From NCBI GenBank assembly GCA_002718595.1, contig PBFD01000004.1:73339-114269 (forward strand): a stretch of 40,931 nucleotides of DNA. Direction: 5' to 3'. This document shows positions 784 to 10,295 of this stretch, one piece after another. Position 1 is the first letter of the stretch, and each line of letters opens with the position of its first letter. Below the pieces are notes generated by a model. The model was given only the letters and a program-made list of their open reading frames with translations, ran no database searches and was not told the DNA's origin. The translations under genes and the position numbers were made by a program. The stretch comes from Gemmatimonadota bacterium (GTDB taxonomy: Bacteria; Gemmatimonadota; Gemmatimonadetes; Longimicrobiales; Gaopeijiaceae).

Positions 784-1194
784 TCAGAAACTTAAGAATT
801 CACCTATTTTGTGAGATATTCCTGCTACTGTAGCGGTTAATACGGTGCCCCAGATCAGGTCTACTATCACAACTTTGACAGGAAAATTCTTAAACAACGC
901 CAGACAGGTGAGGTCAAATGTGCTATAGGCGACTAGTCCTAGAAATGCTCCCAGGGCTAGAGTGCGATTTATAGATTGGTTTTCTAGACCAGGAAGTACC
1001 GCGAAAACTAAAATTGCTACCACGTAGAGCAAGTAGAAGAGAAGTGCTGCTGGCAAGATCGCGTCGGGGCGCATCAGATGACCCAAATGTTTTTGATAGA
1101 AGTCAGATGCTACCACGCCGAGCCAGACGATGTCTATAGCCAGGAATACAATTGCGGTAGAAGCATAGAGCTTCAAGATTTGTAGGCTAAACAT
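784..1194 (-). CDS. DUF2177-family integral membrane protein
   Basis: A 136-residue protein with about four hydrophobic segments: residues 8-28, 45-68, 78-98 and 107-128. The early 'DIVWLGVVASDFYQKHLGHLM' region and the 'STFDLTCLALFKNFP' region fit the DUF2177 family of small membrane proteins, whose function is not known. The start is an ATG at 1194 without an obvious Shine-Dalgarno. It lies 49 bases downstream of feoB on the same strand, so it may be the last gene of the iron-uptake operon, although a role in iron transport is only suggested by position. Confidence 0.7.
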   Translation of the reverse strand: MFSLQILKLYASTAIVFLAIDIVWLGVVASDFYQKHLGHLMRPDAILPAALLFYLLYVVAILVFAVLPGLENQSINRTLALGAFLGLVAYSTFDLTCLALFKNFPVKVVIVDLIWGTVLTATVAGISHKIGEFLSF

Positions 1195-3675: not shown

Positions 3676-3699
3676 TTTATAAGCAAGGGAATATTGCAA

Positions 3700-4629
3700 A
3701 TGCGTATTGCTTCATTATTTCTTATAGGAATTCAGTTGGCTTGTGCGAGTGTCGCTACAGTTGGTGACATAGAGCCATCAAGGCTAGTCGAACAGGACAA
3801 AGTGGGCGTTCTCATTATGGCTCATGGTGCCGATGATGAGTGGAATCAATCGGTTGTTCAAGCGGTGGATCCTATCTCTGAAAATCTCCCTGTAGCCATA
3901 GCATTTGGAATGGCTAATCCCATGACTCTCCAGGCTGGACTCGATTCGTTGGATTCTGAGGGAGTAACTCACGTGGCGGTAGTCAGGATGTTTTTATCAG
4001 GACAGTCTTTCTTGGATCAAACCAATTACTTCCTTGGTCTTTCTGACGATCCTCCAGAGATGTTTGTTATGATGGGCCCAATGGCGCAGAATCCAGAAAT
4101 GAGGAAGCAGCTTCATCATAATCAAGTTGTTGCAACTCATCTTGAAGGTATAATCGACTCCGATATGCCTGCGGTCGTAATGTCTGAGAGAGCATCTGAC
4201 CTGAGTTCTTCGGCGTCTGATGAGGCAGTTTTGATTATCGCTCATGGTGCTGGTGATGAAGAGGAAAACAATACGATATTGGACGCAATGGATCGGGTCG
4301 TACAGAGGTTAGAGATGGCCGGATATGCTGACGTTCATGCAACGACCTTGAGGGAAGATTGGGAAGAAGAACGTATCGCCGCTGAAAAGGATATTCGGGC
4401 TTATGTCTCTCAAATGACCCAGGAAGGATATTCTGTGATAGTGTTGCCCATGCGATTGTCAGGGTTCGGCCCTTATGCTGAGGTCTTGGATGGTTTGGAT
4501 TTTTCTCCTGGCATAGGTCTTTTGCCGCATTCTGAGCTTTCAAATTGGGTTCGTTCTATGACACAGAAGGTCATCGAGTCGGAAGGGTGGAATGTAGATG
4601 TGGTAAAACTTCTTGGCGGTGGATTCTAG
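3700..4629 (+). CDS. Secreted tandem-domain CbiX/SirB-like chelatase homologue
   Basis: A 309-residue protein with a hydrophobic signal sequence (residues 1-16) followed by two similar halves. Each half begins with a beta strand leading to the metal-chelatase His motif: LIMAHGADDEW (His42) and LIIAHGAGDEEE (His182). This matches the fold and active-site His of class II chelatases such as CbiX, SirB and CbiK, which insert Co or Fe into sirohydrochlorin. Unlike the cytosolic enzymes it appears exported; a cysteine at residue 15 could be a lipidation site, but the lipobox (QLAC) is poor. ATG at 3700 is preferred over an in-frame TTG at 3694 because AAGGGA lies nine bases before it. A Fur box just upstream suggests iron control. 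No cobalamin or siroheme genes adjoin, so the substrate is unknown. Confidence 0.72.
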   Translation: MRIASLFLIGIQLACASVATVGDIEPSRLVEQDKVGVLIMAHGADDEWNQSVVQAVDPISENLPVAIAFGMANPMTLQAGLDSLDSEGVTHVAVVRMFLSGQSFLDQTNYFLGLSDDPPEMFVMMGPMAQNPEMRKQLHHNQVVATHLEGIIDSDMPAVVMSERASDLSSSASDEAVLIIAHGAGDEEENNTILDAMDRVVQRLEMAGYADVHATTLREDWEEERIAAEKDIRAYVSQMTQEGYSVIVLPMRLSGFGPYAEVLDGLDFSPGIGLLPHSELSNWVRSMTQKVIESEGWNVDVVKLLGGGF

Positions 4630-5744
4630 GGACCCAGCACTAAGGGTTTTCCAACCAGCCTTGAAGGATCTGCGTCGCTTCTTGGGACATACTTGTCCAT
4701 CCAACCTCCATCCCAACTAGCGATGTATAGATTTCCCTGTTGGTCTACATCCATCTGATGGGGACGCGAAAGGCCTCCTATAAAACCACCTCTTGTTCCA
4801 CCATATGCTCCCAGATAGTACTGCAGCTCCCCTTCTGTGCTGTATTTCAGGAGTCTATTTAAGCTAGCTGAGATTACCCACACTGCTTCATTTTCATCAA
4901 TAAATACGCCTACTGGATCTGAGACGTCTGGCCATTCTTCAATATATTCACCGTTTTCTGTGAATATCTGGATGCGGTTGTTGGTGCGATCGCCCACGTA
5001 GACTCTACGGTCTCGGTCCACTGCAACTCCATGTACCAAGTCAAACTGTCCAGGTCCATTTCCGAGTTCTCCCCACTCCATCAGATGCTCGCCTTCAGCA
5101 TTATACTTGATGATTCTTGAATTCCAGTAGCCGTCACCAACGTAAAAACTTCCGTCGGGGAGAAAGGCCATCACCGCGGGATCACCATAACTATAGGGTC
5201 CAGGGTTTGGATTGGCTCGAGCTTCAGCTCTGGTTGTAGGATGATCGTAATCCACGAGCCGCATTACCAATTCACTTCCATCATTAGTGAATTTGAGTAT
5301 CTGCATGTTCACTCCTCTTCCGCCACCCCTCTCTACAACCCAAACGTGACGGTCAGGGTCATAAGGGCTGATGTAAATTTGGTGTGGCTTATTGAAAATA
5401 GAGTCCCACTGCATCCAGCGCTCAGTGATATTGCCGTCGCCATCCACTACTACCAAGTAGTTGGTCCCCTCTACTCTTTCTTCACCTTCTGAATTCCGGT
5501 CGCCCCAAATGCCGACAATAATTCTGTCCGGTGTGTCTACTGCTACAGCAGATACTTGGCCCCAAGTCCACACATCATCGTGGTCGGGGGCAGGCTTCCA
5601 CCAGTTGGCTACGGCTTCATATTCGCCAGTTCGGTCGTCTCCTCCCTTTGTGATGGGCCCTCCAGCGTCACTAGATGCTTGGCATCCGAACAGGATGACT
5701 AAAGCAGTGGTGCTGATGACAGATAATGTCTTTTGGAACCTCAT
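4626..5744 (-). CDS. NHL-repeat (beta-propeller) lipoprotein
   Basis: A 372-residue exported lipoprotein. The start is ATG at 5744, because a GGAGG lies eight bases upstream and the following residues form a lipoprotein signal ending in VILFGC; an upstream in-frame extension has no support. Several NHL repeats are visible, for example 'VHGVAVDRDRRVYVGDRTNNRIQIFTENG' split over a propeller blade and 'PHQMDVDQQGNLYIASW'. The fold resembles six-bladed propellers such as peptidyl-alpha-hydroxyglycine lyase and SMP-30-like proteins, but no specific activity can be assigned. Its stop codon shares the bases CTAG with the stop of the convergent chelatase-like gene, leaving no room for a terminator between them. 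Confidence 0.85.
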   Translation of the reverse strand: MRFQKTLSVISTTALVILFGCQASSDAGGPITKGGDDRTGEYEAVANWWKPAPDHDDVWTWGQVSAVAVDTPDRIIVGIWGDRNSEGEERVEGTNYLVVVDGDGNITERWMQWDSIFNKPHQIYISPYDPDRHVWVVERGGGRGVNMQILKFTNDGSELVMRLVDYDHPTTRAEARANPNPGPYSYGDPAVMAFLPDGSFYVGDGYWNSRIIKYNAEGEHLMEWGELGNGPGQFDLVHGVAVDRDRRVYVGDRTNNRIQIFTENGEYIEEWPDVSDPVGVFIDENEAVWVISASLNRLLKYSTEGELQYYLGAYGGTRGGFIGGLSRPHQMDVDQQGNLYIASWDGGWMDKYVPRSDADPSRLVGKPLVLGP

Positions 5745-5765
5745 CACAAAAACCTCCATTAGAGA

Positions 5766-5800
5766 AGAAAAAGGGTCACCCAGGTTGGTCTGGGTGACCC
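5766..5800 (-). terminator. Intrinsic terminator of the three-paralogue membrane operon
   Basis: GGGTCACCCAG (5773-5783) and CTGGGTGACCC (5790-5800) form a perfect 11-bp stem with a six-base loop. Read on the minus strand the hairpin is followed at once by TTTTTCTTCTCT. It lies 70 bases downstream of the last membrane-protein gene and just upstream of the NHL gene start, so it separates the two units. Confidence 0.88.
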
Positions 5801-5869
5801 CCAAATATTACGCTAATCCACTACTGTTCAGCAAACCATTCAGAAAATCATTTGCCTCGGTTTAAATAA

Positions 5870-6229
5870 CTATGCAGCAAGCTTGTCGTAGACCGTTCCC
5901 AGTGTATAAGCCACAACTAAGCCGAAACCGACATCGATGCCAAAACTTATGAAGTCCAGCCCACCATTCAAAACATTACTAACATCAACAATCATTATCC
6001 GCACGAATTGAAATGTCAGAGCTGTTTTTATGCCGCTCATTCCAGTGTATCCGACAAGCCAATTAAAGAAGAAGCCCATTACGACTGCTAGGACTGCTAG
6101 GCTAGCCAGAGGGTTGGCTATCAGGTCAGTTCCTTCGCTCAGCATTCCATTTACATTGGGATTGACGTTGTAGAGGTATAGAAAGACAAATAGAACTAGC
6201 GTGTAGCCTCCGATCTGCTTCATATTCAT
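5870..6229 (-). CDS. Small four-helix membrane protein, tandem paralogue C
   Basis: A 119-residue hydrophobic protein, third of three tandem homologues read leftward. About four membrane segments are predicted (residues 6-22, 41-60, 66-84, 94-112). Shared with its two upstream siblings are an aromatic stretch before L..YTG (FFFNWLVGYTGMSG), TALT, FVRI, a following DV, a GG turn and a C-terminal GFGLVVAYTLGTVYDKL. Conserved polar residues inside helices (Arg in VRI, Asp in DV, Thr in TA.T) suggest a defined pore, oligomer or ligand role rather than a passive anchor. The start is ATG at 6229 with AAGGAG about ten bases upstream. I recognise no named family. A strong terminator follows. Confidence 0.72.
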   Translation of the reverse strand: MNMKQIGGYTLVLFVFLYLYNVNPNVNGMLSEGTDLIANPLASLAVLAVVMGFFFNWLVGYTGMSGIKTALTFQFVRIMIVDVSNVLNGGLDFISFGIDVGFGLVVAYTLGTVYDKLAA

Positions 6230-6272
6230 AGTTCACTCACTCCTTATTTGAATCACACAAAGAACCAATGGG

Positions 6273-6635
6273 TTATCCAGCAACTTTTTCGTAGGCCGTG
6301 CCAGCTGCATAGGCAACGACTAAACTAAATCCTGCATGAACAATAGAGCCCATGAGGTCACGGTCGCCATTCAGGAAGCCATATACGTCATAGGCCATGA
6401 TACGGACGAAGGCTATAGTCATAGCCGTTTGTAATGCTGCCATACCGGTATAACCCATTAGGAAATCGAAGAAAACTGCAGCAACAAGACCAAACACTAC
6501 CATGCCGAGCATGGCGTTAGCGAATAATGCAGATCCAGATCCAGCCCACATCTCTCCTATAAAGTTATCCCTAAGGAAAATGGCTATCATTATGACAACC
6601 GCGTAAGCCAAAATTTCTTTCATTCGTCCCATCAT
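6273..6635 (-). CDS. Small four-helix membrane protein, tandem paralogue B
   Basis: A 120-residue homologue of its neighbours on both sides. It has FFDFLMGYTGMAALQTAMT, then VRI, DV, and ends GFSLVVAYAAGTAYEKVAG when read in pieces along the last two helices. The N-terminus MMGRMKEILAYAVV matches paralogue A (MIGRAKEILAYSAV) closely, which supports the chosen starts. AAGGAGG lies nine bases before the ATG. The gap to the next gene is 43 bases, with no terminator in it, consistent with one transcript for the three genes. The function is unknown. Confidence 0.74.
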   Translation of the reverse strand: MMGRMKEILAYAVVIMIAIFLRDNFIGEMWAGSGSALFANAMLGMVVFGLVAAVFFDFLMGYTGMAALQTAMTIAFVRIMAYDVYGFLNGDRDLMGSIVHAGFSLVVAYAAGTAYEKVAG

Positions 6636-6676
6636 GATAAACTGCCTCCTTAATTTTAATTTACAGAAATAGAAAT

Positions 6677-7045
6677 TTAAATTTGTCGAGAAACTCGCTC
6701 ATAGGTTTTTCCAGCGGTGTATGAGAGAGAAAGGGTGAAAATAATATCGACGATCGCCCCACTAGCACTTTGAGTACCGCCCATAATTCCAAAGACATCG
6801 TAAAACAGGATCCTCACCACGCCGATGGTCATGGCCGTTTTGACAGCACTCAAGCCCGTGTAGTCCATAAGCCTGTCGAAGAACAAGCCTGTAACCAGAG
6901 ATGTCGCCATTAAGCTGAGGGTGGGGTTTGGAATCCAGTCCCTTCCACTGCCCATAAAGGTGGAGAGTTGCATGAACTGCCAAACGTAAAGAAAAATGAA
7001 CAGAACGGCACTGTATGCAAGAATTTCCTTGGCCCTTCCTATCAT
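6677..7045 (-). CDS. Small four-helix membrane protein, tandem paralogue A
   Basis: The first gene of the leftward three-gene array, 122 residues. A GTG at 7051 is possible, but ATG at 7045 is preferred: the AGGAG site then sits ten bases away and the N-terminus MIGRAKEILAYSAV aligns with paralogue B. Shared signature residues are FFDRLMDYTGLSAVKTAMT, VVRI, YDVFG and YTAGKTYERV at the C-terminus. About four hydrophobic helices are visible. No family is recognised. The upstream 270 bases to the divergent MFS gene should hold its promoter, but I found no convincing -35/-10 pair there. Confidence 0.72.
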   Translation of the reverse strand: MIGRAKEILAYSAVLFIFLYVWQFMQLSTFMGSGRDWIPNPTLSLMATSLVTGLFFDRLMDYTGLSAVKTAMTIGVVRILFYDVFGIMGGTQSASGAIVDIIFTLSLSYTAGKTYERVSRQI

Positions 7046-7319
7046 GATCACTCAGCTCCTCAAAGATTGAAGTCAAATGCAACCATACACTAATAAGAGC
7101 GTGTGAATGATCTAAAATCAAGGTGGGCAGTATTTTAACGGTTTTGGCGATGTGTCAGTTCCTTAGTGGCAGATTACACTGATTCCGGTACAATGTCTCG
7201 GTAATTTAGAACCATTTTTGATTGTTCATTCTTTTCACTGGGCCTTCCATAACGTTGTAGTGTGAAGAATGGGAGCGCGAATCCTCCTCTGAGCTAGAAA
7301 AAGGGTCTAGGTTGCTATT

Positions 7320-8609
7320 ATGTGGAAGCAGGCAATACTGTCTCTAACCATGACCTCCATTGAATCAACAACGCGACTGCGGCAAAGCCTTGTCTTAGGA
7401 ACACTGATCGCTGCAGGAGAAGCTGCATTTCTCCTACCCTTCGTTCTAGCAAGAGTTTTTCGCCCGACTTTTCTTTCAGTATTTGAAATCAATAACTTCG
7501 AGCTCGGTGTAGCTTTTTCTATGTATGGCTTAGTAGCTATGGGCTCATATTTTGCTGGAGGACCACTAGCGGATCGTTTTTCCGCTCGCTGGCTGATGGC
7601 AATAGCTCTAGGCGCGACTGGCCTGGGAGGCGCTGTATTGGCCGGGATTCCCTCCTCCCAAACTATGAGTATCCTTTGGTCTTTCTGGGGTATGACCAGT
7701 ATTCTTTTCTTCTGGGCTGCCATGATACGAGCCACTCGCGAATGGGGCCAGCTAACTGGTCAAGGCAAGGCGTATGGTTTTCTCGATGGTGGCCGCGGTT
7801 TACTGGCAGCAGCTATCGCATCTATTTCTGTGCTGATTTTTTCCTTGATGCTGCCTGAAGGGACGGCAGCGATAAGACCAGAGCAACGCGAACTGGCTTT
7901 CCGGTCAGTCATCTGGGTGTTTACTGGCTTCACAATAGCTATCGCTTTGTTGGTCTTGATAGTCATTCCAGATAACAATCAATCAATCAAGACCCCTGGA
8001 AAAACAAAGCTCTCCCTTGATGGGATTAAGTCGGCATGTCAGACTCCAGTAGTTTGGCTTCATGCTGTTATTGTCGTGTGTTCCTATACGGGATATAAGG
8101 CAACAGATGATTTCTCTCTTTTAGCAAGTGACGCACTTGGATTCAACGATGTTGATTCCTCTAGCGTTGGTGCACTTGGCTTTTGGATCAGAGCTCTTAG
8201 TGCCATAGGCGCTGGATTTCTTGGGGACCGATTCCAGTCCTCCAGGGTGATCGCTTGGAGCTTCGGAATTCTTATAATGGGAAGCCTTCTCATAGCCTCT
8301 GGAACGACGATAAACGTAGCTTGGATGTTGATCATGACGATTGCAGCAACTAGCGCCGGGATCTATGCTCTTCGGGGAGTATATTTTGCGCTGCTCGAAG
8401 AGGGACAGGTCCCACTAGCCACTACTGGCAGTGCTATCGGTATTGTTTCCTTTATTGGATTCACTCCCGATGTATTTATGGGGCCACTTATGGGGATTTT
8501 ACTGGATAATTTCCCGGGGGTATTGGGACATCAATACGTATTTGGTGTGGTAGCACTATTTGGTTTCATTGGCCTAGTGGCGACATCAATTTTCAGAAAA
8601 ATTGCCTAG
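7320..8609 (+). CDS. Major facilitator superfamily transporter
   Basis: A 429-residue inner-membrane permease with about 12 hydrophobic segments split by a central loop near residues 215-235 (NNQSIKTPGKTKLSLDGI). The MFS loop 2-3 signature is seen at residues 80-90 (GGPLADRFSAR), and a weaker copy in the second half reads GAGFLGDRFQSS. The substrate is not obvious; the overall look is of a nitrate/sugar-phosphate or multidrug-like MFS protein with no strong subfamily motif. The start is ATG at 7320, with TAGG eight bases upstream; a later ATG at 7350 would also keep the first helix. It is divergent from the three-paralogue operon and appears to be a single-gene unit. Confidence 0.9.
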   Translation: MWKQAILSLTMTSIESTTRLRQSLVLGTLIAAGEAAFLLPFVLARVFRPTFLSVFEINNFELGVAFSMYGLVAMGSYFAGGPLADRFSARWLMAIALGATGLGGAVLAGIPSSQTMSILWSFWGMTSILFFWAAMIRATREWGQLTGQGKAYGFLDGGRGLLAAAIASISVLIFSLMLPEGTAAIRPEQRELAFRSVIWVFTGFTIAIALLVLIVIPDNNQSIKTPGKTKLSLDGIKSACQTPVVWLHAVIVVCSYTGYKATDDFSLLASDALGFNDVDSSSVGALGFWIRALSAIGAGFLGDRFQSSRVIAWSFGILIMGSLLIASGTTINVAWMLIMTIAATSAGIYALRGVYFALLEEGQVPLATTGSAIGIVSFIGFTPDVFMGPLMGILLDNFPGVLGHQYVFGVVALFGFIGLVATSIFRKIA

Positions 8610-8792
8610 TACAACGTTTGACTTTGCATCGAAGTGTTGCAGTAAAAGATTTTACCCGACCCTGTCCTTTTCCCATCCAGTCACTAACTATTTGAAGATC
8701 TGGCCGATACTAAGTGTTGGTTTTAGGTTTGGTCTGTAGATCTGTCTTCTTCTGCAATGAAAGGCCAAACTTACACTCAACTAAGATTTCCT

Positions 8793-9356
8793 ATGAGACT
8801 CATTCTGTCCTGCTGGTTAGTAGTATTCTCAATATATCTTCTTCGACCGATAGAATTGAATGCCCAAAATCCAGACAATTTCTTGGGTGGGATCATTGGT
8901 GTCGTTCCAAGAGTATTTGTTGAATGGTCCCACAGTAGCAACAGTATAGAAGAGAGCACCTACAAAGAGGAAGTCGAAGAAGCATTCTACCAGAGCTTAC
9001 TCAGTGGCGGTATTGAAGTGATATCCGTGTACGATTTTGTTGGTGACATTAGGGAAGCAAACGTCTTAGACTGCAATGTCACGACAATGGATAGTGAGAC
9101 TGGAAATGGAGTCATTGAAGAGTACTATACAGAACTCCGACAGTTGGTAGTAAAATGGAGTGATTTTTCAAACTGGGCCAGATCATCTCTAGAATCTCCT
9201 GGAGATCTGGCACCATTCTTTAATTCTACGGCCACTTGGTCTTTTTCTGGAGATCATATGTCCGAACTGAATGAGTTTGGTTCTGAAGGAGCCAGCAGAA
9301 TTGGAGCTGCCTGTGCCCAAGCCTTTATCAGAGAATGGAATAGGATAAACAACTAA
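8793..9356 (+). CDS. Secreted protein of unknown function
   Basis: A 187-residue protein with a clear Sec signal (MRLILSCWLVVFSIYLL...ELNAQ, residues 1-25). The start is placed at ATG 8793 because it begins the signal peptide cleanly; an in-frame ATG at 8757 would add 12 polar residues and neither has a good Shine-Dalgarno. The mature part has no motif I recognise; it holds two cysteines (in NVLDCNVTT and GAACAQAF) that could form a disulfide, and ends in a helical segment typical of periplasmic proteins. It is the first gene of a tight rightward cluster (gaps 12, 54 and 2 bases) ending with a methyltransferase, so the products may act together. Confidence 0.6.
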   Translation: MRLILSCWLVVFSIYLLRPIELNAQNPDNFLGGIIGVVPRVFVEWSHSSNSIEESTYKEEVEEAFYQSLLSGGIEVISVYDFVGDIREANVLDCNVTTMDSETGNGVIEEYYTELRQLVVKWSDFSNWARSSLESPGDLAPFFNSTATWSFSGDHMSELNEFGSEGASRIGAACAQAFIREWNRINN

Positions 9357-9368
9357 GGAAAACTCGTT

Positions 9369-9857
9369 TTGAATTCTAAGACCATATTAATTGTTTCTGC
9401 ACTGATTGTTGTCCTACTAACTGGAATCAGCTACTGGGGAAATCAGAACACACTAAGATGCCCTTCAGATATCCCACTAATACTGGCAGGAGAAACCGAA
9501 GTGCTCTGGGGAGAATTAGAAGCTCCGTACTTTTCTGCTGAACTCACCTCAACCGATGTAAATTGTTCAGTTGATGACGGAGCTTTGCCCTCTCTTGTCA
9601 TGACTATTAACGTCCAGGGATATGGGCGCCTGATTGACCCCATTAGCTTACAAACTGTAGAGCGCCTAAGTTTCGACCTAGTAATCAAAGCCTTAGACAA
9701 AGAAGGTACTGCGTTGGCTGAACAACTAGTCCCAAAAACTTTATACGTTGAGGATGTGTCGACCGATGTAACCGACGTCTCTTGGTCTCAAACCATTGAA
9801 ATCGAAGCAAGGCAGGCACAGCTATTTGATATGATCACTGTCCAGTGGGCTTTTTAG
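9369..9857 (+). CDS. Signal-anchored or secreted unknown protein
   Basis: A 162-residue protein starting at a TTG; AAGGAA lies eight bases upstream and no ATG is available, so the TTG is well supported. Residues 5-22 (TILIVSALIVVLLTGISYWG) form a membrane segment or uncleaved signal. The remainder is rich in beta-forming residues and contains two cysteines (LRCPSD and VNCSVDD). The pattern of alternating hydrophobic residues suggests a beta-sandwich. No family is recognised. It follows the preceding secreted protein by 12 bases. Confidence 0.6.
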   Translation: MNSKTILIVSALIVVLLTGISYWGNQNTLRCPSDIPLILAGETEVLWGELEAPYFSAELTSTDVNCSVDDGALPSLVMTINVQGYGRLIDPISLQTVERLSFDLVIKALDKEGTALAEQLVPKTLYVEDVSTDVTDVSWSQTIEIEARQAQLFDMITVQWAF

Positions 9858-9911
9858 AAGTGACAAAAACCTCAGTACTTCCAACTTCTCGCCACATTTA
9901 AAGGATTTAAC

Positions 9912-10295
9912 ATGGTAAACATACGAACAAGTTCATTAATCCTCCTTTTTCTCTGCATATTCACGACGAAATCCGTTGCGGCTCAAGAGTCCTTCAACCC
10001 AATCGGGGAATATCAACTAACGACTTTCATCTCTGAATTTGGCATGAGCGTGTCGGCCAATCTTGAAATTATCGCCGACGAAGATGAGTATGCCGCACGT
10101 CTAAGAAGTGACTTGGACCCAGAAGGCTCGGTGACCACAAATGTAGGTGTCGAAGGTCGGGAAATAGAAATCGTAGTAGGCACCCCAGATGGAGATGTTT
10201 CGATTTTGCTTTCCATTGCCGATGACAATTCTGTCGAAGGTAGTTGGAGCACTTTTGGGGCTGGGGGCAGTTTCACTGGTAGAAAAGTTCGGTAA
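9912..10295 (+). CDS. Small secreted beta-rich protein
   Basis: A 127-residue exported protein with a Sec signal (SSLILLFLCIFTTKSVAAQ, residues 7-25). The mature 102 residues look like a single small beta-barrel or sandwich: 'GEYQLTTFISEFGMSVSANLEI', a charged turn, 'VGVEGREIEIVVGTPDGDVSILLSI' and a closing 'VEGSWSTFGAGGSFTGRKVR' as successive strands. The closing G-W...GGSFTG.K tail recurs in uncharacterised secreted proteins of Acidobacteriota/Gemmatimonadota-like bacteria, as far as I recall. A lipocalin-like ligand-binding role is a guess. AAAGGA lies about eight bases before the ATG. Confidence 0.6.
   Translation: MVNIRTSSLILLFLCIFTTKSVAAQESFNPIGEYQLTTFISEFGMSVSANLEIIADEDEYAARLRSDLDPEGSVTTNVGVEGREIEIVVGTPDGDVSILLSIADDNSVEGSWSTFGAGGSFTGRKVR

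Follow-up and report, generated by a model that had tools for sequence, protein, structure and literature searches.

The stretch of DNA analysed here (the window; 40,931 nucleotides, G000:C4:73339-114269) carries three consecutive genes for small membrane proteins at positions 5870-7045, raising the question of whether such adjacent paralogs form one multi-subunit complex or are variants of a single protein. The preliminary description of the locus favoured a complex, reading the genes as an operon of four-helix membrane proteins from a family that it could not name. The host genome (G000; 2.02 Mb, 7 contigs, 94% complete) was compared with those of congeners and with a wider sample of Gemmatimonadota.

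The gene trio, its family and the predicted fold

All three genes lie on the minus strand. Gene A (6677-7045), the first of the unit, encodes a four-helix membrane protein of 122 aa from an ATG start, a GTG at 7051 being likewise open as an alternative, and is followed by its paralogs B (6273-6635, 120 aa) and C (5870-6229, 119 aa). The genes are co-directional with gaps of 41 and 43 bp, and the ribosome sites GAGGAG, AAGGAGG and AAGGAG lie 5' of the three starts. The proteins are mutually 36-43% identical, their alignment contains 28 invariant columns, and the motifs YTG, TA.T, VRI...DV and [AS]Y..G..Y are common to all three. When the host genome was searched with B, gene A was recovered at E=4.6e-25 and gene C at E=4.6e-21, and at the level of sequence the homology of the trio is far above chance. 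Coordinates, alignment and E-values confirm three adjacent paralogous genes for proteins of 119-122 aa, each with a ribosome site and all of the claimed motifs.

No match above the curated cut-off was obtained in Pfam, NCBIfam, PHROGs or PADLOC, a PDB sequence search gave no match and a PDB fold search with a model of B returned nothing below E 1.7, in agreement with the earlier assignment to no known family. Weak matches to NADH5_C, Cation_efflux, HtpX, FraC and CDF, each seen in one or two members and mutually unrelated, were rejected as chance. Relatives of A, B and C were found neither on the viral contigs nor on the plasmids searched, and no account of tandem paralogous membrane proteins in Gemmatimonadota emerged from a literature search on that subject. 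The host genome itself contains six members, A, B and C plus three more distant genes elsewhere, the latter detected with B as query at E = 3.2e-7, 1.9e-5 and 4.0e-4 and with an all-member profile at E < 1e-35. Counting genomes with at least one match to a 17-member alignment, the family is present in 26 of the 395 genomes sampled from Gemmatimonadota and in 27 of 121 genomes of the host's own family, the closest named public record with relatives of these genes being Gemmatimonadetes bacterium UWMA-0339. Members are mostly single genes scattered over unrelated neighbourhoods. Neighbourhood clustering across the family revealed no conserved neighbour pointing to a pathway; genes were shared only between orthologous loci, with the exception of amidase, gamma-glutamyltransferase and NHL-type genes, whose similarity between clades is only about 30-39%. 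Amidase-type hydrolases lie near family members in three clades (loci L048, L051, L053, L060, L083, L084 and L090; approximately 29-39% identity between clades), which could be coincidence, such genes being common.

An AlphaFold2 model of B, built from five sequences, consists of four long helices (residues 2-25, 41-63, 67-88 and 94-119) at a mean pLDDT of 81.9, with loop 1 (residues 27-34) poorly defined, and this confident model supports the predicted four-helix membrane topology. The best-kept positions of the family (B numbering) are K6, F55, D57, G64, Q78, I79, D83, G90, R92 and Y115. Conserved polar residues inside the bundle comprise Asp57 in helix 2 and Gln/Arg78 and Asp83 in helix 3, bearing out the earlier remark that polar residues are conserved within the helices; in C and its ortholog from the congener G001, Asn takes the place of D57. 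At position 78, midway along helix 3, each of the six proteins encoded at the A-B-C locus in the host and its congeners has Arg; 45 of the 49 other members have Gln there, and the remaining four have G, G, S and E. Judged from this alignment, Gln78 is typical of the family, not strictly defining, and Arg78 is a clade-specific change at the A-B-C locus. In 47 of the 55 members, the six of the A-B-C locus all among them, Lys and Arg are more frequent on the side formed by the N-terminus, loop 2 and the C-terminus, by a count in which the limits of the regions were set by the analyst. Application of the positive-inside rule to this bias predicts an N-in/C-in orientation for A, B and C; with all copies predicted to face the same way, nothing points to an antiparallel pair.

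Among small four-helix proteins, those best known for tandem pairs are the SMR transporters and the Fluc channels: SMR proteins of the paired EbrAB/MdtIJ type are encoded as tandem paralogs, and Fluc/CrcB fluoride channels can occur as such. Unlike SMR proteins, A, B and C have no PF00893 match and no conserved acidic residue inside helix 1, their copies share one orientation and the fold match to EmrE has a TM-score of 0.30 at E 2.0. Membership of SMR is not supported, given the missing PF00893 match, the missing conserved helix 1 Glu and the E-value for EmrE, and neither is that of Fluc/CrcB (PF02537), with no Pfam match and no Fluc structure among the 50 PDB fold matches listed.

Copy number and selection at the A-B-C locus and elsewhere

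The downstream neighbour of the trio, outside the unit proper, is an NHL-repeat lipoprotein gene (4626-5747, minus strand) kept in all three genomes of the genus that were compared (the host, G001, which is 82% complete, and G002). Since this gene is 88.5-89% identical between species, the three loci are the same locus. The host has three copies beside it (A, B and C), G001 has two (A and C without B; public contig DUCW01000048.1, locus L007) and G002 has A alone, approximately 100 bp from the NHL gene (loci L010 and L040). In each congener the copies are contiguous with the NHL gene, with no space for remnants. A is the only copy kept in all three, B is found only in the host, and C has an ortholog in G001 (63% identity) and none in G002. 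A 55-member tree places the six proteins of the locus in one clade (100/99). Inside it, host A clusters with the lone copy in G002 and with the G001 copy that comes first (99/90), and host C pairs with the second G001 copy (100/99). When the profile of this clade was compared by hhalign with that of the remaining members, the probability was 99.5 and E=2.4e-23, a clear relationship. With three, two and one copies at the NHL locus, not even the genus itself keeps the triplet as a unit.

Gene order at the locus has also changed. In G002 a block of genes for an MFS transporter and for three small proteins of exported type is found upstream of A and co-directional with it; in the window this block is inverted with respect to A and the NHL gene (7320-10295 in the window against 3263-7127 of L040). 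The three successive genes at window positions 8757-10295 (199, 162 and 127 aa) have signal-peptide-like starts, gave no Pfam match and are kept as a set in G001 and G002. Conservation of the triplet in relatives, on which the hetero-oligomer proposal could be judged, was not observed: one congener has a single copy, gene order is altered, and the argument that the tandem copies were kept as parts of a hetero-oligomer is contradicted by the varying copy number at this one locus.

Downstream of C is a hairpin with a perfect 11-bp stem and a T-run (5773-5800, minus strand; arms 5773-5783 and 5790-5800; GGGTCACCCAG-ACCAAC-CTGGGTGACCC, then TTTTTCTTCTC on the minus strand). Its stem is also perfect in G001, where a compensatory exchange on both sides has replaced one G-C pair by A-U, and is degraded in G002, with two mismatches by inspection of the sequences. 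In all three species an element TTGCTG-N18-TA[AG]TAT, promoter-like by consensus match only, occurs 5' of the hairpin, and the ribosome site of the NHL gene directly follows it; in the window TTGCTG-N18-TAATAT and the hairpin occupy 5747-5845 (minus strand), immediately upstream of the NHL gene. Given this arrangement, the hairpin is possibly an NHL 5' leader as well as a terminator: we read it as lying close to the start of the NHL transcript, or right at it, and it could also halt read-through from A-B-C. The perfect stem and T-run of the preliminary description stand, and the hairpin may be the terminator of the unit, the leader of the NHL gene or both. In G001 (L007 1400-1425) and G002 (L040 7310-7330) a near-palindrome, GATTTTTGCACTGCAAAATC, lies directly 5' of the ribosome site of gene A; it is not obvious in the window and is a possible operator.

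Copy number also varies at a second syntenic locus, in genus g38, where one copy is present in G114, two in G131 and in G291 and three in G203, the third copy of G203 being a distant family member. This locus adjoins genes for a PQQ-type dehydrogenase and a methyltransferase, and the order of its tandem pairs is conserved in three genomes. An independent pair of sister copies (100/95) is present in G157. Changes in copy number recur across the family.

The A and C orthologs of the host and its congeners are 63-65% identical, with dN of approximately 0.27-0.30 and dN/dS of approximately 0.11-0.17, dS being at or near saturation. For gene A of G001 and G002, dN is 0.10 and dS 0.29, giving a dN/dS of approximately 0.33. 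These ratios indicate that the copies are under purifying selection, and only in this sense does the earlier contention that they were retained rather than drifting hold. The NHL neighbour has a dN of 0.06 between host and congeners and 0.03 between G001 and G002, so that the copies evolve approximately 4-5 times faster at the protein level (3 times for G001 against G002), a rate more in keeping with accessory, replaceable proteins than with the fixed core of a multi-subunit complex.

The alternative that survives best is that A, B and C mix where they co-occur and are homo-oligomeric in single-copy species, in the manner of paired small transporters evolved from homodimers. One co-directional unit with short gaps and separate ribosome sites, three diverged yet constrained copies and the conserved order of the g38 pairs are all consistent with optional mixing, and the old divergence of A, B and C, for which dS is saturated, would also fit specialised subunits lost in some species. 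The same locus nevertheless lacks B and C in one congener and B in another, and the common predicted orientation offers no antiparallel pair logic; we regard such mixing as rather unlikely. Distinctly less likely is a more elaborate scheme, in which an undescribed phylum-specific family, perhaps with a DUF2177-like fold, underwent in this genus first the Gln to Arg change and then gene multiplication, giving mixed-subunit pores or carriers.

Resemblance to DUF1761 and DUF2177

Remote membership of one of two known four-helix families, DUF1761 or DUF2177, would imply that the trio shares the function of that family. DUF1761 (PF08570) is common in Gemmatimonadota and resembles the trio in size (approximately 123 aa), in hydrophobicity and in roughly collinear sub-threshold matches in a few members. 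Weak hmmscan matches were obtained for 3 of 17 members, the best at 3.7e-4 and below the cut-off; C scored 17.0 bits, B 12.6 bits and A not at all, against 18.1 bits for the best match in the host genome and a curated cut-off of 31 bits. Profile comparison by hhalign gave probabilities of 0.4-2.6, and members scored no higher against the DUF1761 and DUF2177 models than did class-preserving shuffles. On cut-off, profile probability and shuffle-level scores, membership of DUF1761 was rejected at the level of sequence.

For DUF2177 (PF09945) there was no hmmscan match and the hhalign probability was 0.04-0.2, and a sequence relation was rejected on the profile comparison and shuffled controls; a likeness seen by eye in helices 3 and 4 (YD...VD...G..Y-K) failed both tests. 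A DUF2177 four-helix membrane protein is encoded in the window itself (784-1194, minus strand; E 1.9e-44), approximately 4.7 kb from the triplet and adjoining feoB. The same region contains a gene for a CbiX-like protein (3694-4629, plus strand; PF01903, 2.4e-6), possibly an exported chelatase-like protein, adjoining feoA/feoB. DUF2177 genes have been described in operons flanking heliorhodopsin genes (2024; PMC11109279), and the family is uncharacterised in PMC6163359 and PMC11109279. The top fold match of the B model in a viral library was a Klosneuvirus membrane protein (A0A1V0SKS7; Foldseek probability 1.00, TM-score 0.53-0.56, E 0.05), which was also the top match of the window's DUF2177 protein (E 0.013, 27% identity), the model of the latter being weak (pLDDT 65). 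The likeness to DUF2177 extends to size, four helices and a common top viral structural neighbour at a TM-score of only 0.53-0.56, and a shared fold is possible on these models. Set against the profile probabilities, the shuffle-level scores and the weakness of the DUF2177 model, the few DUF1761 matches and the common viral neighbour leave remote membership of either family, with its function, very doubtful.

Probable interchangeable variants and their possible role

Two further explanations are highly improbable. An obligate hetero-trimer, or fixed three-component channel, as suggested in the preliminary description, would suit the co-directional triplet of the host genome but is largely refuted by the copy-number data within the genus and by members that elsewhere are mostly scattered single genes. 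The other explanation, that the copies are functionless or decaying duplicates and the genome is drifting, would account for repeated copy loss and for evolution faster than that of the NHL neighbour, but hardly for the intact reading frames and ribosome sites, for the invariant columns or for a dN/dS far lower than 1 in the A and C orthologs.

The trio probably arose by tandem expansion, at the level of the genus, within a family of small inner-membrane proteins, its products being interchangeable variants that act alone or as homo-oligomers. Each protein would consist of four transmembrane helices bundled in an N-in/C-in orientation around a few conserved polar residues, and its copies would come and go over short times, as might be expected of a dispensable, fast-evolving envelope protein. 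This quick gain and loss makes independent action or self-association the most likely mode for each paralog, homo-oligomerisation being suggested by the copy-number variation. A tentative guess at the activity is that the bundle lets a small solute or ion pass via the D57-Q/R78-D83 cluster, and a role as an accessory or stabiliser of membrane proteins is about as likely. Paralogy, the wider family, copy-number turnover, purifying selection and the four-helix model are supported directly, and these data lend no support to a new kind of machine. The analysis defines an unnamed four-helix membrane-protein family of Gemmatimonadota, with an alignment and residue list useful for annotation, and documents that the number of tandem copies changes rapidly at two loci, in two genera with genomes of approximately 2.0 and 2.4-2.7 Mb.
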